Part shown: positions 49,942 to 64,000 of the stretch, one piece after another
Layout: each line of letters opens with the position of its first letter
How positions within the stretch are numbered: the stretch's first letter is position 1
NCBI GenBank assembly: GCA_027482225.1
Contig: JAIXWD010000006.1
Span: 62,001 to 126,000, forward strand
DNA length: 64,000 bases
Direction of reading: 5' to 3'
Origin: Bacteroidota bacterium
GTDB lineage: Bacteria; Bacteroidota; Bacteroidia; UKL13-3
Notes under the pieces: generated by a model
What the model saw: the letters and a program-made list of their open reading frames with translations, nothing else
The model's database searches: none
What the model was told of the DNA's origin: nothing
Translations under genes and position numbers: made by a program

Positions 49942-51768
49942 TTATTCTTTTATAAGTTTACTAAAGTTATCTGTACCATTAACAGTTGTTTTAATGGTAT
50001 AAATACCTTTTGGTAATGTAGTAATATCCATGTCAGCAAAATTACTGCTAACATACTTTGCCATTACTGTTTGACCTAAAGCATTGTAGATTGTTACCTC
50101 TTGAATAGTATTGCTCGCAGTTATGCTAAAATTGTTATTAGCAGGATTAGGGTAAATTCCAATCGTCTCTGCATTAACCTTAGATACTCCTGTTTGTGTT
50201 TTTTTACTGAACAAAACATTATCAATGTAGGCAATTGATGTGCCCGAAGGAACACTTGCAAAAACCAATTGAGCAATATTTGATTTGGTAGTTAATCCAG
50301 CAAAATCAGCAAGAGAAACCGCTACGTGATTCCACGCATTTAAAGTTGGTGTTAAAGTTAGTTCATGTTCTTTATCATCACCACCACCAAATGCGCCATC
50401 AGCACCGAAATCAACTAATTTGTATTTGAAGGTGGTAGAGTTAGGTGTCCACAAATCAAACTCAAATGTATCCATGGTTGTAACGTTTAATTTGTTTGTA
50501 ACTGTTTCTACTCCAGCATAATCTAATCCGGTGTATTTTTTTACATCGTTAGATGCAATTTGAATATCAGTAAGTGTAGCAGCTGACCATGATGTTCTCC
50601 AAGTATCAACATTAACATTGGTATAAGCATTACTAAACAATGAAATAACATCGGCTGCTAATTTTGTTGGTGTAGGTGCAGCAGTGGTTGGCTCAGCATA
50701 TACGGGTGCTTTACTAAACATTACGTTGTCAATGTATACAACAGAAGTACCTGAAGGCACGCTAGCAAAAATAAGTTGTGCAATGTTAGATTTAGTTGTA
50801 AGACCTGTGAAATTAGAAATTGGCACTGCTATATGATTCCATCCATTTAACGTTGGAGTAACAGTAAGTTCGTGATTTTTATCATCACCACCATCAAATT
50901 TACCATCAGCACCGAAATCAACTAATTTGAACTTAAAGGTAGTAGAATTTGGTGTCCAAACATCAAATTCGAATAGATCCATAGCACTAATATTAATCTG
51001 GTTTTGTACCATTTCAATACCAACAAAATCTAATCCTGAGTATTTTTTCACATCATTGTTTGCAACTTTTATATCAGTAAGTGTAGCTGCTGACCATGAA
51101 GTTCTCCAAGTATCAATATTAACATTGGTGTAAGCATTACTGAATAAAGAAATAACATCAGTAGCCGGTTTAGTTGGGGTAGGTGCAGCAACCGTTGGTT
51201 CAGGTAAAGCATTACCAGCCGAGAAGGTTATGTTATCAAAGTAGGCTACTACATTTGATGTTCTACCTGATAAATTAAAGTCTGGGAAAATAGCAATTTG
51301 GCTGATACCTGTTGAAGATGGCTCACCAATTTTTCCAGAGAAATTGAATGTTAATTCTTCCCATTCGTTTATTTTAGTATTGGCCACTTTAATCTCGCCT
51401 GAAGATGCGTTACTATCTGTCACGAATTTGATTCCAACATCGCTGATAACTGATTTGTAAACCATAATTTTTACAATTGAATTTGATGCAGATAAAGTAA
51501 ACTTACCTATATCGCCTTTCAATGACTCGCAACCCGCCCAGGGCCTTCCGGCTTGCAAAGCAGTGAATTTTGCAACTTTGGTAGAGGTGTTAGGTGCAAC
51601 AGCACTTGGATTGTTTACAACTTGCAATGCTGGATTTGAGTCATTCTCAAAAGTTGTCCAGGTCCAGCTTGCACCCTGCCCGCCCAATTCAAAGTTAATT
51701 GGGGCGTTTTGTGAATACCCTATACAAAAAGTAAGTAAGGATAAACTAAAAGTAATAATTTTTTTCAT
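49942..51768 (-). CDS. T9SS-secreted protein with tandem carbohydrate-binding-like repeats
   Basis: From the ATG at 51768 the protein has 608 residues; a longer frame to 51813 lacks a signal sequence. Signal peptide (1-20, ending IGYSQ); a first beta-sandwich domain (about 22-185); two tandem domains of about 165 residues (187-353 and 356-522), each opening with PTPTKxAxDVISLFSN and ending YIDNVMFSK or YIDNVLFSK; and a C-terminal type IX sorting domain (about 530-608, IYPNPANNNFSI and LPKGIYTIKT). No catalytic domain is visible, so it is probably a surface or released glycan-binding protein. The same PTPTRPQADVKSIFSD domain occurs in the lipoprotein at 61664. Confidence 0.85.
   Translation of the reverse strand: MKKIITFSLSLLTFCIGYSQNAPINFELGGQGASWTWTTFENDSNPALQVVNNPSAVAPNTSTKVAKFTALQAGRPWAGCESLKGDIGKFTLSASNSIVKIMVYKSVISDVGIKFVTDSNASSGEIKVANTKINEWEELTFNFSGKIGEPSSTGISQIAIFPDFNLSGRTSNVVAYFDNITFSAGNALPEPTVAAPTPTKPATDVISLFSNAYTNVNIDTWRTSWSAATLTDIKVANNDVKKYSGLDFVGIEMVQNQINISAMDLFEFDVWTPNSTTFKFKLVDFGADGKFDGGDDKNHELTVTPTLNGWNHIAVPISNFTGLTTKSNIAQLIFASVPSGTSVVYIDNVMFSKAPVYAEPTTAAPTPTKLAADVISLFSNAYTNVNVDTWRTSWSAATLTDIQIASNDVKKYTGLDYAGVETVTNKLNVTTMDTFEFDLWTPNSTTFKYKLVDFGADGAFGGGDDKEHELTLTPTLNAWNHVAVSLADFAGLTTKSNIAQLVFASVPSGTSIAYIDNVLFSKKTQTGVSKVNAETIGIYPNPANNNFSITASNTIQEVTIYNALGQTVMAKYVSSNFADMDITTLPKGIYTIKTTVNGTDNFSKLIKE
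50203..51210 (-). repeat. In-gene tandem duplication encoding two near-identical domains
   Basis: Two segments with a period of 169 codons (about 507 bases) encode closely similar 165-residue domains. Stretches such as DVISLFSNAYTNVN and VDFGADG are identical. The similarity extends to DNA level, which points to a fairly recent internal duplication. Confidence 0.8.
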
Positions 51769-51824
51769 ATTTAGATTTTTTAGTGTTTGTAGTTGCAATA
51801 TCGTAAAAAACACTTAAAGTAAAT

Positions 51825-51839
51825 AATACTATAAGTATT
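51825..51839. promoter_or_regulatory. Palindrome between the T9SS gene and the Nudix regulator
   Basis: AATACT-ATA-AGTATT, a perfect 6-bp inverted repeat in the 105-base divergent region. It is a candidate operator for the adjacent regulator. It is AT-rich and could be chance. Confidence 0.35.
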
Positions 51840-51873
51840 TTTTTAAATGAATTTTCTATAACATATTTGTGTG

Positions 51874-52599
51874 ATGAAAATTCCTAATCCTTACTACATA
51901 TCTGACTATAAATTACCATTAATTGAATACTTTGTTTTTGGCTTGTCCGTTGATTGTGTGGTTTTTGGGTATCATGAAGGCGAGATTAAAGTATTATTAA
52001 TACAGAGAGAAGCGGAGCCATATAGGGGACATTGGGCTTTAATTGGTGACCTTGTTGAGCCTGAACAAAACTTGCATGATGCTAGCAATAACGTGTTGGA
52101 AAAACTTACTGGGTTAAAAAATATCTTTATGAAACAATTTTTTACTTTCGGAAGTTTAGATAGGCATCCATTGGGAAGGGTGGTTACAGTTGGTTATTTT
52201 TCACTGGTAAAAAGTATTAGTTATCATCCCATAGCTTCTTCTTGGGCAAAATCTGCAGAGTGGTTTAATATCAATGATTTACCAGAATTAGCTTTTGATC
52301 ACCATACTATTTTATTAAAAGGCATTGAGACGTTAAAAAATGAGGTTCGACATAAACCTATTGGTTTTGAACTATTGCCAAGTAAGTTTACCTTGTTAGA
52401 CTTGCAGCTACTTTATGAGGCGTTACTTGGATATAAATTTGATAAGTCTAATTTCAGGAAAAAAATTCTAGAAATGAACATACTAAAACCGCTTAATGAG
52501 GTAAAGGATAATGTATCTCACAGGCCGGCCAAACTTTTTAAATTCGATGAGAAACGATATAGACAATTAGAAAAAGAAGGTTTTTCGTTCGAACTCTAA
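51874..52599 (+). CDS. Nudix-type transcriptional regulator (NrtR/AraR-like), catalytically inactive Nudix box
   Basis: About 241 residues from the ATG at 51874 (a GTG one codon earlier is possible). An N-terminal Nudix domain (about 25-150) is joined to a C-terminal winged helix (about 160-240; KFTLLDLQLLYEALLG and NFRKKILEMNIL). This is the layout of NrtR and of the Bacteroidota AraR-type sugar regulators. The Nudix box reads GDLVEPEQNLHDASNNVLEKLTG, where the REXXEE catalytic core is NNVLEK, so hydrolysis is unlikely and ligand sensing is expected. Position next to the glucan genes suggests it controls them. Confidence 0.85.
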   Translation: MKIPNPYYISDYKLPLIEYFVFGLSVDCVVFGYHEGEIKVLLIQREAEPYRGHWALIGDLVEPEQNLHDASNNVLEKLTGLKNIFMKQFFTFGSLDRHPLGRVVTVGYFSLVKSISYHPIASSWAKSAEWFNINDLPELAFDHHTILLKGIETLKNEVRHKPIGFELLPSKFTLLDLQLLYEALLGYKFDKSNFRKKILEMNILKPLNEVKDNVSHRPAKLFKFDEKRYRQLEKEGFSFEL

Positions 52600-53029: not shown

Positions 53030-54460
53030 TTATACAGATATTTCTCTGCCTTTATGGTCAAGTAATTGTTTCTTTATTTCATTGGCTTTTTTTTCTGTAA
53101 GATCATAATTCCACATCACCCACATGGCAATTAAGGTTCCCATAATGGGTACACCTGAGAAAAACAACCTTAGTCCTGTAACAGCTCCTTCAGGTTGAAT
53201 AGGTGCACCGGCTTTAAATGCAACAGCCGACATAATTACACCTGTTAATAATCCAGCTATTGCAAAACCAAATTTTACCATCCACCAGTAAATAGCTCCA
53301 AAAATGCCTTCTCGTCTTTTGCCGGATTCCAATTCATCCATATCACAAACATCAGCTGTCATCGACATCATTAATGTAAATAAACTACCAATTCCGAAAG
53401 AGAAGAACGGCAGTGCAAATAAAAATAAATAAGGTTTTCCAGGTATAAAGAGAAACCATAACAAAATATATCCTAAAACTGAGATTCCTTGACAAATCAA
53501 AAAGGCTATTTTTTTCTCTAGTTTTTTTGCAATCCAAGCAACTGTAGGAATAACAATAAATGCTGTAGCTAATGCACCTCCACATCCGAAAAGAGTAGGC
53601 CAAATACCTGCAGCAGCGCTATCTCCATCAAATAAATAATAAACAACAATAAAAAAAGTAAAGCCGGCAACTGTATTAAACGCGTTAAAAATTAAAAAAG
53701 TTGCTATGCATAATTTTCTAAATGGTTTGTTAGCAAATGCCTCTTTAAAACTTATTAAAATCTCTTTAAAACTTCCACCTATTGTTTTATAAGTAAGTGG
53801 CTTCAATGAATCATCAAATTTAGTTGATTTACTTTTAATAAAAATAGCCGGAACCATTGCTAAAAGCATAAATATTATACCAACCCAAATTGCCAGTGTT
53901 CGAGTTGCAGTATCAGCATTGGGAAACCAAGTTGGATCATACATGATTACCCAAAACCAAGGAGCAATTACCCAAGCAAATTGTCCAATCCATTGTGAGA
54001 TTGCCATGATGCTGGTGCGTTCGTGAAAATCATCACTCATCTCGTAACCCATAGCAACATAAGGCACACTGAAAATAGAAAGGCCGATGTGAAAAACAAG
54101 TGAGAAGATAAGAAAAAAAGTGAAGTTGTACATAACGCTATCTTCTCTATACAATTGCCACATAACAATAAATGCGATACCCATAATAATGGAACCCACA
54201 AACACATATTGTCTCCGCCTTCCCCAAACTGATTTGGTATTATCTGAAATGAATCCCATTATCGGATCAAAAAATGCATCTACAATTCGTGGCACAAAAA
54301 ATAATACGCCCCACATCCAAGATGGCATTCCTAAGTTCTCAACCAACACAACCATAAAGATACCTAGTGCTGCAGGAAACATCTGATTGGCAAGCATTCC
54401 GAGTCCAAATGCAATTTTTTGACTCATTGGTACTTTATGTGATAAATTGTTATTAGACAT
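53030..54460 (-). CDS. GPH-family (MelB-like) MFS sugar:cation symporter
   Basis: A 476-residue polytopic protein with about twelve membrane helices, of the glycoside-pentoside-hexuronide:cation symporter family. Features include GLGMLANQMF near the start, the loop DPIMGFISDNTKSVWGRRRQYV (about 66-87), and the second-half ADVCDMDELESGKRREGIFGA. It probably imports oligoglucosides produced by the glucanases across the inner membrane; the substrate is inferred from the operon. Last gene of the GH149-GH17-GH30 operon, two bases after the GH30 stop. Confidence 0.9.
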   Translation of the reverse strand: MSNNNLSHKVPMSQKIAFGLGMLANQMFPAALGIFMVVLVENLGMPSWMWGVLFFVPRIVDAFFDPIMGFISDNTKSVWGRRRQYVFVGSIIMGIAFIVMWQLYREDSVMYNFTFFLIFSLVFHIGLSIFSVPYVAMGYEMSDDFHERTSIMAISQWIGQFAWVIAPWFWVIMYDPTWFPNADTATRTLAIWVGIIFMLLAMVPAIFIKSKSTKFDDSLKPLTYKTIGGSFKEILISFKEAFANKPFRKLCIATFLIFNAFNTVAGFTFFIVVYYLFDGDSAAAGIWPTLFGCGGALATAFIVIPTVAWIAKKLEKKIAFLICQGISVLGYILLWFLFIPGKPYLFLFALPFFSFGIGSLFTLMMSMTADVCDMDELESGKRREGIFGAIYWWMVKFGFAIAGLLTGVIMSAVAFKAGAPIQPEGAVTGLRLFFSGVPIMGTLIAMWVMWNYDLTEKKANEIKKQLLDHKGREISV

Positions 54461-54462
54461 AC

Positions 54463-55971
54463 TTATTTATTATTTATGATAATTGTTTGTAATGCTTTGG
54501 CATCAATAGTAATCACTTTTGTGTTGTTGTCGAGTTGGATGGAAACATGGTAAGGCTCATCTGTTGGATTAAATAACGCCACAACTACACTTCCATCATG
54601 ATTTTGAATTGCAGTAGTCATCACCTCTTTATGGTTAACTTCACAACCAATTTTAACTGCACCCGGTCGCATAAACTTACTGAAATGTGCCATTACGTAA
54701 TAAATTGGTGTAAAGTAAACTTCATCATTTTCGGTATCAACAATAACTGGTGCTACACACCAATTTTTAAACCAATTAGGGCCACCTTGCGTATTTAAAA
54801 CCATATTCCAATCAATCCAGCCATTTACATAATTGTTCAAGCAACCTATGATATCACTTGCATACCTATTTATCGGAGCATATTTTGGGTGTAAATATTT
54901 TTCTTTTTCACTTGCCCAATCCCAACCCCAATCTGTAGCTTCTTTTGCCCAATACCAAGCATCATTTCGCCATTTAGGAACTTCGGAATCAATACAACCT
55001 TCGGTTTGTATTAAATATTTATTTGGCGATTTTTTATGAGCATATTGTAACGTTAACGGAAAATAATCAAAGGTGCTTTCATACCAATGCACAGCCGTTC
55101 CTGCAAAATATTTTGATGATTTTTCATCTCTATACATTTCATCTACCCATTCTTTTATTCCCCCTCTATTTTGATCATAGCCTAAAATATTTACCTCACC
55201 ACAGCCTTTTTTTTCAAGTGTTGGACCTAAATGGTTTTGAACAAAATCGGTCATTTCTTTGGGTGAAAACAAAGTACTTTCCCAATTATTGCCATTTCCA
55301 TGCGGTTCATTTATAACAGTTACCCCCCAAATATTTATCCCTTCTTTTTGGTAAGCAGATAAATATTTGGTAAAATACAAAGCGAATGCATCATAATATT
55401 TAGGCAACAGTTTTCCGCCAACAAAACTTTTATTTTCTTTCATCCATGGCGGAACTGTCCAAGGTGATGCTATAATTTTAAAACCTGCTTTAGAAATATT
55501 TTGAGCATCTAAAATCATAGGAATCAAATCACCCTTATCATCCGCTATGTTAAAATGCTTTAAATCTAAATCGTTCTCTATTTTGGCATATGTGTAATTA
55601 TTTAATGAAAAATCGCATGAAGCAATGTGTGTTCTGGTTAATGAATAATTTGCTCCTTTTTCACTGAAATAAGCATCAAGTATTTTCTTCCTATTTGGTT
55701 TGCTAACTTTATTTAATAAATACGCAGAAGCTTCTGTAAATGAACCTCCAAACCCAATAATTGTTTGAAACCTATTATTAGGATTGATATTGATAGTTAT
55801 TGTTTTTTCTGCAGGTTTAAAATCTTTTAGTAAAGTTAACGCATTCCCACTTTGTGAAGTTTCATAAACTTCTAATGTTATTTTTTTGGTATTATTACAT
55901 TGAAGATGAATGCAACAAATCATTCCGCATAAAAGGTTTTTAAAGAATAAATGATGTTGCTTCCTATCCAT
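54463..55971 (-). CDS. GH30-family glucosidase/glucanase lipoprotein
   Basis: A 502-residue secreted hydrolase with a hydrophobic N-terminus and likely lipobox (HLQC, near Cys25). The GH30 features are IIGFGGSFTEASA (residues about 70-82), acid/base Glu222 in VTVINEPHG, and nucleophile Glu324 in IQTEGC, with the C-terminal beta-domain. GH30 includes beta-1,6-glucanases and beta-glucosidases; in this locus trimming of 1,6-linked branches of laminarin is plausible but unproven. Five bases lie between the GH17 stop and this start. Confidence 0.9.
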   Translation of the reverse strand: MDRKQHHLFFKNLLCGMICCIHLQCNNTKKITLEVYETSQSGNALTLLKDFKPAEKTITININPNNRFQTIIGFGGSFTEASAYLLNKVSKPNRKKILDAYFSEKGANYSLTRTHIASCDFSLNNYTYAKIENDLDLKHFNIADDKGDLIPMILDAQNISKAGFKIIASPWTVPPWMKENKSFVGGKLLPKYYDAFALYFTKYLSAYQKEGINIWGVTVINEPHGNGNNWESTLFSPKEMTDFVQNHLGPTLEKKGCGEVNILGYDQNRGGIKEWVDEMYRDEKSSKYFAGTAVHWYESTFDYFPLTLQYAHKKSPNKYLIQTEGCIDSEVPKWRNDAWYWAKEATDWGWDWASEKEKYLHPKYAPINRYASDIIGCLNNYVNGWIDWNMVLNTQGGPNWFKNWCVAPVIVDTENDEVYFTPIYYVMAHFSKFMRPGAVKIGCEVNHKEVMTTAIQNHDGSVVVALFNPTDEPYHVSIQLDNNTKVITIDAKALQTIIINNK

Positions 55972-55976
55972 ATTGA

Positions 55977-57257
55977 TTAATTTATTTTGTATGCAGGTAA
56001 TTCAGCTACTTTCAGCAACTCTTCTTTTTTACCCCCATAGGTTTTAATGATAGGTTTTTTATCTCTTGTTAGTGTCTTAAAAGCTCCTTGATCGACTTTT
56101 TCCCACATGGCATATTTTGCTTTACCATCAACCGTAAATAAGCCAAAATGATTTTCTGAACCGTTTGGGTTTGTTACATCTTTCCATTTTTCATCAAATG
56201 CCTCAAAATAAAAACAGGTTATTTTTTCCTTTGTTGTCCAGTCTCTCACCAATTGATAATAAATGGCTGATTTGTATTCATCACATGCCCTCGAACCATT
56301 TTTTCCGTAATAACCATCAGAGTTTGATGCCCAACCGGTTTCCCCGATATGAATAGGTTTATCCACTCCAATTGATTTCATGTAATTATAAACATTATGA
56401 TATTGTGCCTTGGCATGAGTTATAGAATGCCACATGAGAGAATCTATTTTAGCTTGGTTACTTAATGTGTTTTCTTCTTCTGTTAATTTCCAAAACACTG
56501 GATTGTAATGGGTATCATGCATAGGATAAGTATGTATTGAAACAAAATCTACTGCTTGATATAGTTTGGTTAAATCTTCAACATGATAAGTAGTATCGCC
56601 ACCACCCCATGATGCGAAATTATCAGAGGAGGTAATCCATAAATCTTTGGGTAGGCCATTTTTTTTTTTTAGTTGTTGAAGATGGTTTACCCATTTTAAA
56701 ATAATTTTAGGTGTTACGTAATAACTTATTGCCCACTTAACCATAGCCTCGTTACCCACGGAAATCATTTTCACAATTTGAGGATATTTATTGGCTAAAT
56801 CTACTGCTCTTTTAATTTCGGAATTATTCGATACTTCATTTTCTTTCTCATGTTTGGGTAAAGCAGTTGTCCATGCATTTTCACATTCAATCCAAGCACC
56901 AAGCATCACATACATTTCGAAACTAGCATCCTCAGTTTGTAGTTCCTTTATGGCTTTCAATAAATTACTTGCCTCTGCATAGTGCGTGTTATAAGTACGA
57001 AGTAACTTGATGCCCGTTGCATGAAGTATTTTTATATCTTCCTTTATTTGGGTAATACTTGGTTGTGAATCTCTGTTGTTGGTGCGATAGCCACCGTAAC
57101 AAATTGCCAGGTAGTTTGTATCCCCTAAAATTTGTGCTGCTGTTTTGGGGTTACCAACCGTTTTTTCTGTTTCTTTTTTCTTTTGCGACAAGCCACAAGA
57201 AACTAAAATAATAGTTAAGTAAACAAATAGGCCGTATGGTAACCCAATTTTTTGCAT
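55977..57257 (-). CDS. GH17-family endo-beta-1,3-glucanase lipoprotein
   Basis: A 426-residue protein with a lipobox (IILVSC, Cys21) and a GH17-type barrel: the YGGYRTNNRDSQPSI start, acid/base Glu170 in SVGNEAM, and nucleophile Glu306 in HIGETGWAS. Bacterial GH17 enzymes hydrolyse beta-1,3-glucans such as laminarin. It probably acts at the cell envelope on oligo- or polysaccharide. It sits between the GH149 and GH30 genes, with four to five base gaps. Confidence 0.88.
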   Translation of the reverse strand: MQKIGLPYGLFVYLTIILVSCGLSQKKKETEKTVGNPKTAAQILGDTNYLAICYGGYRTNNRDSQPSITQIKEDIKILHATGIKLLRTYNTHYAEASNLLKAIKELQTEDASFEMYVMLGAWIECENAWTTALPKHEKENEVSNNSEIKRAVDLANKYPQIVKMISVGNEAMVKWAISYYVTPKIILKWVNHLQQLKKKNGLPKDLWITSSDNFASWGGGDTTYHVEDLTKLYQAVDFVSIHTYPMHDTHYNPVFWKLTEEENTLSNQAKIDSLMWHSITHAKAQYHNVYNYMKSIGVDKPIHIGETGWASNSDGYYGKNGSRACDEYKSAIYYQLVRDWTTKEKITCFYFEAFDEKWKDVTNPNGSENHFGLFTVDGKAKYAMWEKVDQGAFKTLTRDKKPIIKTYGGKKEELLKVAELPAYKIN

Positions 57258-57261
57258 GTTG

Positions 57262-60200
57262 TTATTTTAGAATTGATGAATTAATAAACACCGTGATTTG
57301 GACAATCTCACCAGTTCTACTGAAAATGTGCGAGCTTGTTTCTTTGTTTAAATAAAGGGATTCGTGCCTGCTTAAACGTCCATTTAGATGTTCAATTTCC
57401 ATGTAACTCTCAGTTGATAAACGATAAATGATTGGCACTTGACAAATGGTAAAACACAATGAACCGGGAACAGGTTTTGTTATTTTATGTTCATTATTTA
57501 CAGTTACATATCTGAATATCCTTTCTTCACTTGTAAACTCATCTTTAAGGAGTAAACACGGTTTAAAGTATAAAATTCCATCTGCTACAAAAACACCTAG
57601 CTCACCAAATCTACTTAGTATGTCTTCTTTTACTTGGCCGGTCATGCCGGGCTGTTGGGCGCCTTTATTACTTGGTGTGTGCGAGTATGGGTCGGTTGGG
57701 AATGCACCATATAATTTTGGAGATTTATGTACCCCAACACCTGCGTTTATTTCGTAATAGTGATCCAATAATTTACCTATTACCTCTTTCGACTCTCCTG
57801 CTTCAATAGCTTGTAGACATACCTCTTGAACTGCTAATTGCAATTTAGATACCATGTGCCAATAAATAGAACCAAGCCCTTCGTATCCATAAAAAGTACC
57901 CGAGCGCCCTGTAAATGATTTATGGTCGAACACATCCTCAAAAATAGCAAGCACTTGTTGTTGCTCTTTATCAAGTAGTGTAGCATATTTAGCAGTATCA
58001 AGTTTTAACAAGGCATCACTTAGATCCGCAGCATTTTTAAAATTACCATTAAAACGATAATCACCATTAATGTCTTGCTCAACAATTGATTTATCGCCTG
58101 CGGCAAGCATCATCTGCAACAACTCCGATTGTTGTACTGCTTGTTTTAGTAATTTATTTTTTGCTAAAAACTTCGGTAATGCCTTGTTGGGATAAAGTAA
58201 ATAACTGTATTGATCATGGCGGAAAAGTCTGCTATTTTTCATGCTATCCAACAATGCAAGACTATCTTCAGCACTTAAATAACCGGAACTCAACACAGCT
58301 ACTTGTCCTTCCAACATTTCGCTCAGGTAAGAAATAGTAACTTTTTTATCTCCATCTACACTCATCAAATTGTAGGCATGATACATGTTATCTACACGTT
58401 TATTTGCTTTGATAGTATGTTCAATAAATAATAAACTGACTTTAACAAATGCCTTTAGTCTGCGGTAGGAAATGGTTCGCTTTTCGCCCCAAAACGATTG
58501 CTTGTAAATATGTGTTCTGTAATCGCTGGCTGCTTCACCTAAACTATCTAATAGTTCTTTTCGCTTCTCATCGTTTATTTCACCATCAAATAAATGAGTA
58601 TTCTCTTCAAATGTGGCATGTACCTTTTTAAAGAATATGATTAACTCATTCGATAATTCAACGCGTTCCTCATTGGTTTGTTCAATCAATTTCTCAAAAA
58701 ATACTAAGAATCTTCGGAGGTAATAAAGCGTAACCATAGAAACCCCGTTTCCCACCAATGCATTATTCGCATCATTCCATTCCGGACGTTGGGTGTTCAT
58801 CCAAATTCCACCACCGGGAATAAAGTTTGAAAGTTTTGACAGGACTGTAGCAAGTATCTTTTCTATAAAATTTACCGTGTGAATTTTATCGTTTTGATTA
58901 AGTAAAAGAGTAGCATCAGCACCAATTATATCTCGTTTTGTACGGATTGCTGAATCCAACTTCTCATCAAACTCAATAGTATTTTTTGCATTCTTTAAAA
59001 TGTCTTGATATTTTTTAATTTTATATGGTACATTGGCATACACAAATAAGTCGTCATTAAACTGACTGCTTAGTTTACCCGGATAATACTTCTCGTTTAG
59101 CTCTAAAAGTTTAAGTAAATATATAATTTGGTGATCGCCCCAATATCCAATGTACGACCAAGGATTATCATGCTCTACGGTTTCCCAATCAAACCCACCT
59201 TTAGTAAGCCTGTATGGATTGTAGCCTTCAAATGTTGTTGCATTTAAAAACCGATGAATCATGCTGCGTGTAAAAGCAGGAAATGATATAGACAAAGCCT
59301 CCCAATTTTGAAAAATATCTCTCCAGTTGCCTTCATAATCTAAAACCTTAGAGTGGTCAACTGCACTTCTGGTATTAATTGAAAATTTATTCCAAGGTCT
59401 GCTAGGATCGCCATGTCTTCGGCTGAATTTTAGCGGTAGATATTCGGTACATAAACGATGAAAATTTTTATCATCAACCTGAGCAACTAATTTTTCCAAA
59501 TCAAAAACAGTGAATATTTCATTCAACCCGTCTAATAATGTTTTATGAGTTTCATAAACGTTTTTATTAGCAGCAGCGATGCAATTAATAAGGTCCCACT
59601 TTTCTATTTGATAGTTGTGATCAAAAATTCCACCACGCATGATGTTAAACAAGGTATTTGAAAAATGCCTGGTATCTCTGTAAACATCATTAGATAACTG
59701 AATACCATCAGCAGAGGCATTTAGTTCAATAAGTCGTTTTGATCCTAACTCAATATCTTGCTCTATTTGTTGTTGAAGATTAGGATTGGTTTTAATTTGA
59801 TGAATAAGTTCAACAACATTGGCCTGACTTTGATTCACATCAGCAACAATTAACCACTGCTTCTCGCTTTTGGGTGATATTATAATTTTTTGATTAATGA
59901 AATACGACCCTCTTTCAGCTTTCACATCTTCCTCTTGTTCGATATCCTTCCCATTTCTAAAAGCATTTAGTTGTAAAGATGATAATAGGTGTTTTGGATT
60001 TTCTAATCCAAGCGACCAAGCAACATTAGCTTTTAAAGCTTCACTTGGCTCTGCTCTATCAACAATAATAGCACTAAGTGCAAAAATACCTAATCCGGTT
60101 TCTGTGTCTAACTCGTTTCGTTTGTATGCATCAACCAGATTACTTGTAGCATTTTGCAAGTCGCTACCTACACCATCGGGCATAATATTTTGTATACCAT

Positions 60201-60714
60201 CAAGTATGCTTATCTGTAGTATTTGGTTTCCGATATTTTCGATGGTAGATTTTCTTGCAAATCCGTATACGTTACTTGTGTTCCATTCGTATCGGAATTT
60301 TAATGAAAAATCATGGTTGATTTCTTCGAAGATAATTTTGTTACCTATAGCGTTTTTATATAGGTTCCTTGAGATTTGATATAATCCTGATTGACGTTCC
60401 GAAAACGGTTCCCAAATATGTGTTTTATCTTGTTGGGTGATTTGAAATATTGATTTGGAACCGGTTATGTCGTATGACTCTGTAATTTTATCTGCAGTGT
60501 AATATGGAAATAATGCATACTCAGCGTTTTTCCTTCCTGCCGTAACTCCACCATTACTTGCTATAAACAACCAATGATTTGAATCACTAACTATACTCAT
60601 AAAAAACGAACGTATATCATCATGATTAGAAATACAGAAGAAATTCTCTCCCTTTATTTTTAATCTTTTTATTTGAACCTCAGTTTCTTGTTTACCTTGT
60701 TTTTGACTTGACAT
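57262..60714 (-). CDS. GH149-like beta-1,3-glucan phosphorylase
   Basis: A 1150-residue cytosolic protein (no signal peptide) of the GH94/GH149 phosphorylase type. The N-terminal beta-sandwich (about 1-330) contains DSNHWLFIASNGGVTAGR and FPYYTADKI. The (alpha/alpha)6 catalytic part contains KFSRRHGDPSRPWNKFSI and LDYEGNWRDIFQNWEAL, with the acidic residues of the expected catalytic Asp. GGGIWMNTQRPEWNDANNALVGNG follows. Length and motifs match GH149 enzymes, which phosphorolyse beta-1,3-oligoglucosides to glucose-1-phosphate. Catalytic assignment is by family resemblance. First gene of the four-gene operon. Confidence 0.78.
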   Translation of the reverse strand: MSSQKQGKQETEVQIKRLKIKGENFFCISNHDDIRSFFMSIVSDSNHWLFIASNGGVTAGRKNAEYALFPYYTADKITESYDITGSKSIFQITQQDKTHIWEPFSERQSGLYQISRNLYKNAIGNKIIFEEINHDFSLKFRYEWNTSNVYGFARKSTIENIGNQILQISILDGIQNIMPDGVGSDLQNATSNLVDAYKRNELDTETGLGIFALSAIIVDRAEPSEALKANVAWSLGLENPKHLLSSLQLNAFRNGKDIEQEEDVKAERGSYFINQKIIISPKSEKQWLIVADVNQSQANVVELIHQIKTNPNLQQQIEQDIELGSKRLIELNASADGIQLSNDVYRDTRHFSNTLFNIMRGGIFDHNYQIEKWDLINCIAAANKNVYETHKTLLDGLNEIFTVFDLEKLVAQVDDKNFHRLCTEYLPLKFSRRHGDPSRPWNKFSINTRSAVDHSKVLDYEGNWRDIFQNWEALSISFPAFTRSMIHRFLNATTFEGYNPYRLTKGGFDWETVEHDNPWSYIGYWGDHQIIYLLKLLELNEKYYPGKLSSQFNDDLFVYANVPYKIKKYQDILKNAKNTIEFDEKLDSAIRTKRDIIGADATLLLNQNDKIHTVNFIEKILATVLSKLSNFIPGGGIWMNTQRPEWNDANNALVGNGVSMVTLYYLRRFLVFFEKLIEQTNEERVELSNELIIFFKKVHATFEENTHLFDGEINDEKRKELLDSLGEAASDYRTHIYKQSFWGEKRTISYRRLKAFVKVSLLFIEHTIKANKRVDNMYHAYNLMSVDGDKKVTISYLSEMLEGQVAVLSSGYLSAEDSLALLDSMKNSRLFRHDQYSYLLYPNKALPKFLAKNKLLKQAVQQSELLQMMLAAGDKSIVEQDINGDYRFNGNFKNAADLSDALLKLDTAKYATLLDKEQQQVLAIFEDVFDHKSFTGRSGTFYGYEGLGSIYWHMVSKLQLAVQEVCLQAIEAGESKEVIGKLLDHYYEINAGVGVHKSPKLYGAFPTDPYSHTPSNKGAQQPGMTGQVKEDILSRFGELGVFVADGILYFKPCLLLKDEFTSEERIFRYVTVNNEHKITKPVPGSLCFTICQVPIIYRLSTESYMEIEHLNGRLSRHESLYLNKETSSHIFSRTGEIVQITVFINSSILK

Positions 60715-60812: not shown

Positions 60813-61628
60813 TTAAAATTCCTTATAAACCCTAACGTAATCAATTGTCATGGCTCCTGGGAATGGAGTATTCTCGTTAGGCGGGCCAACAAAATTTCCT
60901 CCAACTGCTATATTTAGTAAGATAAAAAATGATTGATCAAAAACCCATTCACCGGATGCATCAGCCGGAGTAACTCTTTTATACAGGTAATTGTTTACAA
61001 AAAAATCAATTTTATCCTTGTTCCATTCAACTGCATAAGTGTAAAAATCGGCATCAAATCGGCCATTTTGTAATGCGTAAGTAGAACTTACGGCTTGTCC
61101 GCCAGAGTATCCAGGACCATGAATTGAACCATAAGTTATATTAGAGAATTTCCCTTTTTGCTCCATGATATCAATCTCACCACAAGTTGGCCAACCAATA
61201 GTTCTGATATTATTACCCAACATCCAAAATGCTGGCCAAATACCTGAACCAGTTGGTGTTTTGATTCGAGCTTCTATTTTACCATATTTTTGAGCGAACA
61301 AACCTTCCGTTTTTAATCGTGCAGAAGTGTATCTGCCCGCATTATCTTTTAATGCCCTTATTACTAAATTGCCTTTACCGTCTAACATTACATTTTGACG
61401 ATTGTTGGTATATGTTTGAAGTTCATTATTTCCCCATCCATTTTGTCCTGTACCAAGGTCGTATGTCCATTTCAAGGCGTTTGGTGCTGTTCCTGAATCA
61501 CCATCAAACTCATCACTCCAAATCAATTCAAATTTTCTTTCTTGTAAAGTTTGTATCGGCTCCACTTCACATCCTGAAAGTGCGACAAGTGTAGTACCTA
61601 AGTATATTGTTTTATTTAAAAAATTCAT
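60813..61628 (-). CDS. GH16-family laminarinase lipoprotein
   Basis: A 271-residue lipoprotein (LVALSGC, Cys20, followed by acidic residues typical of surface export) with a GH16 jelly roll. The catalytic EIDIME is intact: nucleophile Glu151, Asp153 and acid/base Glu156, in the laminarinase-type signature with the extra Met. WSDEFDGDSG, GSGIWPAFWML and AVEWNKDKIDFFVN also fit. Endo-cleavage of beta-1,3- or mixed-linked glucans is expected at the cell surface. It is downstream of the glycan-binding lipoprotein. Confidence 0.93.
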   Translation of the reverse strand: MNFLNKTIYLGTTLVALSGCEVEPIQTLQERKFELIWSDEFDGDSGTAPNALKWTYDLGTGQNGWGNNELQTYTNNRQNVMLDGKGNLVIRALKDNAGRYTSARLKTEGLFAQKYGKIEARIKTPTGSGIWPAFWMLGNNIRTIGWPTCGEIDIMEQKGKFSNITYGSIHGPGYSGGQAVSSTYALQNGRFDADFYTYAVEWNKDKIDFFVNNYLYKRVTPADASGEWVFDQSFFILLNIAVGGNFVGPPNENTPFPGAMTIDYVRVYKEF

Positions 61629-61663: not shown

Positions 61664-63073
61664 CTACTTGTAGAAATAAATATTATCAAGAATAAAGTTA
61701 GGCCCACCGGTAATAATAATTGCTCCTAAATTACCCTTTTGATTGAGAATAGCTCCATTCAGCGGAATTTCAAAAGATTTCCAAACTCCAACTTGAAAAC
61801 CACTCAGAGTGGTTCTTAAATCTTTATCATCACCCATCGGGTTACCGGTATTTACATCTGTTTCAATGGTTTTATTTCCCCCTATATCTCTTATTTGAAT
61901 ACCAATGGTGGTTGATGCATTTTCCACATAAGCATCTATATGAAGAAATCCTAAGGTTGATGCATCTATTGTGTTTCCGGTGAACATGATTCCTGTATAA
62001 TTATTATTACTGTATTGCGCTACCTTTCCTGTGCTTGTAGTGAGAATTTCTGCCAACGTAGTAGAACCTCCAAAGCCCGGGGTAAAATTACTTTCTGTAG
62101 CATTGGTATACGTATCACTAAAAATGGACTTCACATCAGCTTGTGGGCGAGTAGGGGTTGGTGCATTTACTAAATCTCCTTTGCAATCTATAGTTAATTT
62201 GCCTTTTGCCGCAACACCATTAACAGTAGCAGTAATATCTGTTATTCCAATTTCTAATACGGTTACCACGCCATTATCATCAACTTTTGCAATTTTAGGG
62301 TTAGAACTTGTAAATGTAAAATAATATGATGAGGAAAGTACTTTTACATCTTGTCCAGTAACCAAATTAAACGTATTACTTACGCCTGTTATGTTAATGG
62401 TTGAACCAATAAACGCCTTGACGGTGCTTGTTTTTCCATCAAAAATATTAGGAGATGGTGTACCTACATTACCTAGTTTTTCAAACTTTATTTCATCAAA
62501 CCAAAGTGCATAACCTAAACCATTGGTGCCCTGAGTTCCCGCTGCAAACCAGAACATGCCTCTTTCATTTGTTAGTTTAGAGGGATCAGGAATTGGGATA
62601 ATTATTTTAGTCCAATTGGTTCCTACATTCACATTTTGAATAGAAACCCTGTTTTTATCTCCAAGATAGTCGATTCCAAAACCCACATCGCCTAGTTTTA
62701 CCCCAGTAGATGCCTTTACATAAAAAGTTAGCGCATCATAACCTGTAAGATTCCTCCCTGCACCATCAATTCTAAAAATCGCCCCCGCATAAGTACCTGT
62801 TGGATCTGTATTATTGGGTACATCAATTCTTATGGAGGCATTACTTTCAAAACCTTCCTTTGTATCTACTGAAAATACATCCGGTTTTGCGTCTGCGAAC
62901 GGAAAATAAAAATTTGAGCCTAAACCGATAAAGTTATCCGTAAAAATTGCAGCTGTTTTTGCAAAAGTGGGTAATACGGCATCATCAGATAACTTTCTTT
63001 CGCATCCCAATTGAAGAATTAAAGTGGCAGATACGATAAATATAATCTTAGTTCTTTTACCTAGAGTATTCAT
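61664..63073 (-). CDS. Glycan-binding-type surface lipoprotein
   Basis: A 469-residue lipoprotein (LQLGC, Cys24, then ERK). N-terminal beta-sandwich (about 45-205), a BIG2-like Ig domain (about 220-300; ITATVNGVAAKGKLTI), and a C-terminal domain (about 305-469) that opens PTPTRPQADVKSIFSDTYTN and is homologous to the tandem domains of the T9SS protein at 49942. No catalytic residues. It probably binds glucan at the surface, as SusE/F-type or surface glycan-binding proteins do. It lies just upstream of the GH16 gene. Confidence 0.75.
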   Translation of the reverse strand: MNTLGKRTKIIFIVSATLILQLGCERKLSDDAVLPTFAKTAAIFTDNFIGLGSNFYFPFADAKPDVFSVDTKEGFESNASIRIDVPNNTDPTGTYAGAIFRIDGAGRNLTGYDALTFYVKASTGVKLGDVGFGIDYLGDKNRVSIQNVNVGTNWTKIIIPIPDPSKLTNERGMFWFAAGTQGTNGLGYALWFDEIKFEKLGNVGTPSPNIFDGKTSTVKAFIGSTINITGVSNTFNLVTGQDVKVLSSSYYFTFTSSNPKIAKVDDNGVVTVLEIGITDITATVNGVAAKGKLTIDCKGDLVNAPTPTRPQADVKSIFSDTYTNATESNFTPGFGGSTTLAEILTTSTGKVAQYSNNNYTGIMFTGNTIDASTLGFLHIDAYVENASTTIGIQIRDIGGNKTIETDVNTGNPMGDDKDLRTTLSGFQVGVWKSFEIPLNGAILNQKGNLGAIIITGGPNFILDNIYFYK

Positions 63074-63105: not shown

Positions 63106-64000
63106 TTAGTTGTTAATATTTATTTGGATATAAGTGCGTATTTCCCATTCGTTGCCGTTCGGGAATCCAATCGCATTAGGGTTTGGTACGTATTGTCCTA
63201 AACTATTCATTGATAAGATAGGAGAGTACCTATTAGAGTATCTGTTTAACGTACGATAGGTTCCTCTTATACCAATTTTACTTCCTGGCATCATAAACCA
63301 ATCAGGTTTACTTACTTCAAATGACCAATCCCCAATTAGCTGAAGTGGGAATGTTTGGTTAAAATCTCTGTGGTAATCAAATGGTCCCCAATCATCAATT
63401 TTTGCAATCGTCATTAGTTTCATTTTACGGTATATAGTTCTAACGTCAATTCCATATCTTTTGATTGTCCTGGTATCACTGCCATTTGCTTGCCCATTAC
63501 CAAAATATACATTACTAATAAAACCCAATTCGGAATTCACTTTAGAAACTATCCTTGCATTAAATTCCCATAAGTCTTGAGCAGGTGCAGAGCCAGGAAA
63601 CACAAATGTGGTACGGCCATTCCCAAGTATACCAATAGCGGCATCTTGTAAAGTTGGAAGATGACGATATACAAATCCAGTACTCATTGCAAACTTGGCA
63701 TCTTCCATCCTATCATTATCCCACTCATACATCCAAGTTGCAGGTGTAGGATCATAGCTAAGTAAAATTTCACCAGCCATTGTTTCTCTATTTCCTCTTA
63801 CAGAAAAAGGATCGTCTAGGATATTTCTTGGTCGAGCAGGCGCTACAAAATTAGGCCCAATTGGACCCACTAACGGTTTCTGATATAAGAAATTAGGTGC
63901 AACTTGTAACTTACCTATGTTATAGGTAAATCCAGTAAGCGCATTATACATATTTCCGCTTCCTACATCCTTTAGTATCCAACCTGTAAAGGTTTTGGTT
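63106..64000 (-). CDS. C-terminal part of a large outer-membrane/barrel protein, cut by right edge
   Basis: An open frame continuing past the right edge; the internal ATG at 63951 is not a start since the frame is open to base 64000. About 298 residues are visible, rich in aromatic alternating strands (WMYEWDNDRMEDAKFAMSTGFVYRHL, TIAKIDDWGPFDYHRDFNQT), ending IQININN. The composition fits the C-terminal strands of an outer-membrane barrel. It is the gene before the glycan-binding lipoprotein, so it probably belongs to the glucan locus; no specific family is assigned. Confidence 0.6.
   Translation of the reverse strand, partial: TKTFTGWILKDVGSGNMYNALTGFTYNIGKLQVAPNFLYQKPLVGPIGPNFVAPARPRNILDDPFSVRGNRETMAGEILLSYDPTPATWMYEWDNDRMEDAKFAMSTGFVYRHLPTLQDAAIGILGNGRTTFVFPGSAPAQDLWEFNARIVSKVNSELGFISNVYFGNGQANGSDTRTIKRYGIDVRTIYRKMKLMTIAKIDDWGPFDYHRDFNQTFPLQLIGDWSFEVSKPDWFMMPGSKIGIRGTYRTLNRYSNRYSPILSMNSLGQYVPNPNAIGFPNGNEWEIRTYIQININN

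Follow-up and report, generated by a model that had tools for sequence, protein, structure and literature searches.

Laminarin is a major storage carbon of algae. Laminarin loci of marine Bacteroidota have been described from several sides: GH30, GH17 and GH16 recur in them (PMC6298971, PMC6794258), a GH149-GH0-GH30_1-GH17 arrangement is on record (PMC10108472), and individual laminarin loci are reported for Formosa (PMC6246565) and Muricauda (PMC13188888). A precedent of another kind comes from cellulose. The C-domain of Cytophaga hutchinsonii CHU_1279 (PMC12016534) binds cellulose and is, according to the authors, a possible new CBM family; the presence of the protein counted for more than its cellulose binding.

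The window (the whole stretch of DNA that was analysed, 64,000 nucleotides of contig JAIXWD010000006.1 from a Bacteroidota bacterium) holds the enzyme set of a canonical laminarin PUL (GH16/GH17/GH30 with GH149). The four enzyme genes and a GPH symporter gene sit between a lipoprotein gene and the gene of a T9SS protein, whose parts are given further on:

53030-54460, minus strand: GPH-type MFS sugar symporter (PF13347, 214.9 bits)
54463-55971, minus strand: GH30 glucanase/glucosidase (PF02055, 264.2 bits)
55977-57257, minus strand: GH17 beta-1,3-glucanase (PF00332, 32.6 bits against 28.2)
57262-60714, minus strand: GH149 beta-1,3-glucan phosphorylase (NF058639, 1756.9 bits against 1150)
60813-61628, minus strand: GH16 endo-beta-glucanase (PF00722, 80.2 bits)
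61664-63073, minus strand: SGBP-B-like surface lipoprotein, predicted (ORF list, orthologue alignment, Foldseek)
61667-62161, minus strand: C-terminal copy of the repeat module in the lipoprotein (genome search, VIA)
62201-62326, minus strand: Big_2 Ig-like linker domain of the lipoprotein (PF02368, 29.3 bits against 22.8)
62444-62968, minus strand: N-terminal module of the lipoprotein, CBM4/CBM11-like fold (VIA)
63106-63999, minus strand: C-terminal part of a 1039-aa protein that continues beyond the window (rest in L004:1107-4226)

(A side observation on the symporter: at other loci, L041:6792-9140, L042, L043 and L049-L052, it measures ~782-784 aa as against 476 aa in the window, and the extra part may represent an MFS-GH17 fusion such as has been reported for Formosa.)

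The T9SS protein is secreted and non-catalytic. Its listed open reading frame begins with GTG at 51813 (49942-51813, 623 aa); the likely start, read from the sequence, is instead the ATG at 51768 (MKKIITFSLSLLTFCIGYSQ), which gives 608 aa and an MKK... signal-like N-terminus. On that reading its parts, and those of the divergent promoter region, are:

49942-51768, minus strand: non-catalytic multimodular protein, predicted to be T9SS-exported (ORF list, start read from the sequence)
49945-50157, minus strand: T9SS type A C-terminal sorting domain (TIGR04183, PF18962)
50197-50676, minus strand: repeat 2, CBM11-like module (repeat comparison)
50704-51183, minus strand: repeat 1, CBM11-like beta-sandwich module (repeat comparison, AlphaFold, Foldseek/VIA)
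51199-51705, minus strand: N-terminal module, homologue of the laminarin-binding CBM X584, PDB 8QX6 (hmmsearch)
51812-51836, unstranded: ACTTAAAGT...ACTATAAGT, candidate twin operator of the divergent promoter (pattern search)
51871-52599, plus strand: NrtR/AraR-like regulator of the Nudix family, oriented divergently to the T9SS gene (PF21906, 88.5 bits; PF19368, 53.9 bits)

The sorting domain scores 47.5 bits with TIGR04183 (cut-off 23), which places it in that family, and 46.7 bits with PF18962 (cut-off 27). The candidate operator, ACTTAAAGTAAATAATACTATAAGT, separates the T9SS gene from that of the NrtR-like regulator; its pattern recurs at 8 further loci, two of which (L005 and L122) are apparently one contig.

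The initial annotation had described the T9SS protein by two domains, nearly identical, with a period of 169 codons, at 50203-51210. The account by two domains is incomplete: a third, divergent module (residues 37-205) was overlooked, and the protein carries three modules in a row, one of X584 type and two repeats. The tandem pair itself is real and its period exact, but the position was off by about 30 bases: the 169-codon units are 50677-51183 and 50170-50676 on the minus strand, and their folded cores, ~160 residues each, are 50704-51183 and 50197-50676. "Nearly identical" is too strong. Repeats 1 and 2 agree at 124 of 169 residues (123 of 165; 78% across the 158 residues over which repeat 2 was compared with repeat 1), at 371 of 495 bases, and in only 73 of 165 codons, and because so few codons are alike the duplication must be taken as old. 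A tree built from 79 copies places each of the two repeats with its positional counterpart in three congeners (supports 100/94 and 99/92); this grouping by position and the codon divergence together rule out a recent duplication. Elsewhere in the same tree (L059, L089, L039, L078, L120, L033, L124) copies cluster by protein, which points to repeated independent duplication or to homogenisation.

The diverged copy that had been placed at the C-terminus of the lipoprotein is indeed there: a search of the whole genome places it at residues 305-469 (31% identity, E 2.8e-11). With the two in the T9SS protein it brings the count for the genome, which measures 2.72 Mb and is 99.92% complete, to three, and no further copy was found. 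The statement that the module always follows a Pro/Thr linker fits these three, but is too general: among 230 distinct copies from the fetched loci, PT occurs within the first five residues of 202. The 12-residue junction before the module has a P+T content of 49%, against 16% across the whole proteins. (A phage or viral origin of the module was considered and set aside, a scan of viral contigs with repeat 1 having found no relative.)

What kind of module is it? Given repeat 1 with an alignment of 41 family members, AlphaFold returned a confident beta-sandwich (pLDDT 95.9, pTM 0.91) built almost entirely of strands; comparison of this model with CBM families, which the initial annotation had proposed as a check, gave CBM11, CBM30 and CBM29 as the best PDB fold matches. 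Foldseek places three CtCBM11 entries first (E 1.9e-7 to 3.7e-7, TM 0.66), of which two contain bound beta-1,3-1,4-glucan, followed by CBM30, CBM8 and CBM29. VIA assigns Z scores of 12.8 to CBM11, 12.8 to CBM29, 12.3 to CBM30 and 11.6 to the laminarin-binding X584, with agarase N-domains, CBM29, CBM11, CBM8 and CBM30 tied at about 12-13; the superposition on CBM11 covers 142 residues at an rmsd of 3.4 and 16% identity. (VIA rows outside the CBMs, a complex I assembly factor and Eph receptors, were taken to share the fold only, and not as relatives.) Since CBM29 and CBM30 score as well as CBM11, the fold does not point to CBM11 in particular: going by the model, the repeat can be assigned firmly to the CBM-like beta-sandwiches and only weakly to CBM11 specifically. 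The model also shows repeat 1 folding confidently in isolation, and in relatives the family is attached to a carbohydrate-active enzyme (GH81), both as in CBMs generally; the module in the window is not joined to any enzyme in the same polypeptide.

At the level of sequence the connection to CBM11 is faint. The window repeats match no Pfam or NCBIfam model above its cut-off; the best Pfam match of repeat 1 is CBM11 (PF03425), at 17.9 bits against a cut-off of 27 (15.6 against 27 for the whole T9SS protein). Weak PF03425 matches at E<=1 occur in 11 of 41 copies (best E 5e-4), and a four-copy relative, L116, passes just over the cut-off as a whole protein with 27.7 bits. Searched against the PDB, the repeat 1 sequence alone has no match at E<=10, and 8QX6 is absent from the 16 matches of the repeat profile at E<=10; the best of these, kinases, were taken as chance, and CBM11 appears there at 0.15. 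That the family is "not yet named" is accordingly right for Pfam and NCBIfam, and in the literature on laminarin-binding CBMs (CBM101-105, X584/8QX6) we recognised no paper that names it, but its sister module X584 already has a solved structure. Aromatic residues at positions 26, 30, 53 and 76 are kept in 40-41 of 41 copies, and it is these that one would first expect to stack against sugar rings. Position 53, invariantly aromatic, falls on CtCBM11 Tyr53 in a weak HMMER alignment, and D101/H104 on Asp99/His102; Tyr53 and Asp99 are residues that we take to contact the ligand. In that same weak alignment Tyr152 is not retained, and the repeats have no counterpart of the CtCBM11 insert, which presumably bears Arg126/Asp128/Tyr129.

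A connection to laminarin comes from the overlooked N-terminal module. A profile of 24 orthologous domains, picked from 55 listed in the fetched loci, has one PDB match at E<=10 by hmmsearch: 8qx6_A (E 8.6e-9, profile positions 16-157), an entry titled "Novel laminarin-binding CBM X584" that probably stems from Zuhlke et al. 2024 (Environ Microbiol e16624). This module and the repeats are remotely akin (hhalign probability 85%, E 6.5e-6), and they keep company elsewhere: repeat modules and X584-type modules occur in one polypeptide at eight of 23 loci (L136, L138, L140-L145) retrieved from genomes of Flavobacteriaceae, the family of the Tenacibaculum record L102, that were selected for likeness to 8QX6 (53 of 397 match). 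A ninth such polypeptide, L134, is the same protein as L102.

How far does the association with glucan breakdown extend? A profile search drawn across the phylum finds the repeat-module family in 49 of 296 genomes and 30 of 140 genera. Within 147 genomes (the set of relatives and the source genome), 18 have both the module and GH149, 8 the module only, 3 GH149 only and 118 neither (Fisher p 3e-14, uncorrected for kinship). The module has GH16 nearby at 33 of 79 loci, as against about one GH16 per genome (138 matches in the 147 genomes), and GH149 nearby at 14 of 79; these 79 loci are listed under Bacteroidota or under bacteria without a name, many of them from related Flavobacterium species and so not independent, and several lie on short contigs. 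That the module always stands beside glucanases is ruled out: 46 of the 79 loci lack GH16 in the stretch available, and many single-copy T9SS relatives sit away from any glucanase. In the first two sets of loci, 157 ORFs match at least one of the three profiles made for the modules, and none of these ORFs also matches GH16. Copies number 1-4 per protein. (In genus g14, L044:11445-15377 and L045, the gene with the tandem modules has a GH3 enzyme in its vicinity in place of GH16/GH149; a CBM30-like protein, 27.7 against 27 bits, is in the same neighbourhood.)

The fusions of the module do not all speak for one ligand. A further 12 stretches, chosen for long proteins, hold 14 module ORFs, 12 of which were scanned with Pfam. 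GH81 is an endo-beta-1,3-glucanase family, and in two of the 12 scanned proteins (L155 and L164) three modules follow a GH81 domain on its C-terminal side. Other module proteins contain CBM20- or CBM48-like domains (L160, L162, L163) or CBM48/AMPK1-like domains (L033, L087, L118), and some copies accompany LTD domains. Two large module proteins, L156 and L165, have a subtilase (S8) domain. The proposal of the initial annotation that these are beta-glucan-binding modules can be retained for glucan binding, a prediction with good backing from the CBM11/30/29-like fold, the X584 neighbour module, the laminarin-type operon and the GH81 fusions, but not as "beta-glucan" for every copy: with copies beside CBM48/CBM20-like domains and in subtilases, the term may not fit all of them, and specificity may vary. 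The repeat module appears, from its sequence and its model, to represent a family of CBM11-like, putative glucan-binding modules unnamed in Pfam and NCBIfam.

We put at roughly three in four the probability of the following reading: the repeats are CBM11-like CBMs, the T9SS protein serves for multivalent capture of laminarin, and the lipoprotein is its SGBP-B-like partner. What the analysis shows directly is the repeats, their predicted fold, the homology of the N-terminal module to a laminarin-binding CBM of solved structure, the operon and the GH81 fusions of relatives; glucan binding with laminarin as the ligand, surface location, and action by avidity are what we infer. The T9SS protein would reach the outside of the cell, either on its surface or beyond it, and would hold laminarin (beta-1,3-glucan) chains by three candidate sites strung on Pro/Thr linkers; the lipoprotein would be its membrane-anchored partner and would offer two more, in the CBM4/11-like and the CBM11-like module that its Ig spacer carries. 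Several sites acting together would give a firm hold on soluble laminarin near GH16. Glucan so concentrated for GH16 on the outside would next be trimmed by GH17 and GH30, enter by symport and undergo phosphorolysis by GH149. As to the lipoprotein, Cys24 in its LGC motif is invariant in 12 of 12 orthologues, although the lipobox of the window copy is not canonical. Its model (pLDDT 81.4) has SGBP-B, 7kwb, as best Foldseek match (E 1.8e-8); in VIA its N-domain matches CBM4-2 (residues 16-177, Z 11.7) and CBM11 (residues 17-179, Z 11.6), and its C-domain CBM30 (Z 12.8) and CBM11 (Z 12.1).

Might the family bind glycans, but not mainly beta-1,3-glucan, with members differing in preference (mixed-linkage glucan, cellulose, alpha-glucan)? 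The copies in the window could then bind mixed-linkage or cell-wall glucan released alongside laminarin. CBM11, the nearest fold, was after all solved with beta-1,3-1,4-glucan, cellulose is the ligand of the CBM11-like domain at the C-terminus of CHU_1279 (PMC12016534), and some module copies share polypeptides with CBM48-, AMPK1- or CBM20-like domains; set against a locus of GH17, GH30, GH149 and GH16, an X584 module next door and the GH81 fusions, we consider this unlikely. That the repeats bind no glycan and act as spacers or assembly domains joining the T9SS protein, the lipoprotein and the outer-membrane barrel is less probable still, for while like folds occur in protein-protein domains, subtilase fusions exist and the presence of CHU_1279 outweighed its cellulose binding (PMC12016534), the 1-to-4 copy number with repeated independent duplication suits avidity, the aromatic positions are kept across distant copies, and GH81 fusions are found.

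The absent SusD may be the stranger part of the finding. The SusD families PF07980 and PF14322 have no match in the 99.92% complete genome (the control matched in Bacteroides ihuae), and the 21 TonB-plug matches of the genome include none in the window, those on its contig lying at 15.9 and 44.1 kb, outside it. The SusC/SusD pair of the canonical laminarin PUL was not found here, and the laminarin locus may lack such a pair. The 1039-aa protein, which adjoins the lipoprotein gene and is matched at 13 of 79 loci, has a weak GH2-type TIM-barrel match at its N-terminus (PF02836, E 0.0092, below the cut-off); its C-terminus, read by eye, is probably an outer-membrane beta-barrel. One can imagine a SusD-free capture of laminarin in which T9SS arrays of one X584-type and several CBM11-like modules, the lipoprotein with its copy of the latter and the 1039-aa protein replace SusC/SusD, and in which avidity is tuned as tandem duplication adds modules to the arrays or takes them away; this is a tentative and, on balance, doubtful proposal. 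That the presence of CHU_1279 mattered more than its binding counsels caution about reading the window proteins as capture devices.

Found widely across the phylum and often in glucan loci, the module bears on many "hypothetical" T9SS proteins; its series of one to four copies is a natural test of avidity tuning. The locus also bears on how Bacteroidota without SusD might hold and import laminarin, an algal carbon store.

Set beside the described systems, the window locus has GH16, GH30, GH17, GH149 and an MFS transporter in common with "variant B"/"variant 1" of the laminarin PUL of marine Bacteroidota, and differs from them in that its genome has no SusD match and the window no TonB plug. 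CHU_1279 (PMC12016534) is likewise SGBP-B-like, with two CBM-like domains, of which the C-domain is CBM11-like, and a cluster without SusD; it belongs to a cellulose system. SGBP-B of Bacteroides thetaiotaomicron (7kwb) is the top Foldseek match of the lipoprotein model, but the TM-score is low (TMq 0.24) and the domain arrangement unlike. CBM11 of Clostridium thermocellum Lic26A-Cel5E (CtCBM11; 1v0a, 6r31, 6r3m) is the best Foldseek match of the repeats over ~142 residues; the repeats differ from it by their 16% identity, sub-cut-off Pfam score and missing insert. The repeats themselves are without a sequence match to X584 (8QX6) at E<=10; they share its fold (Z 11.6, VIA), and the N-terminal module beside them is its homologue in sequence.
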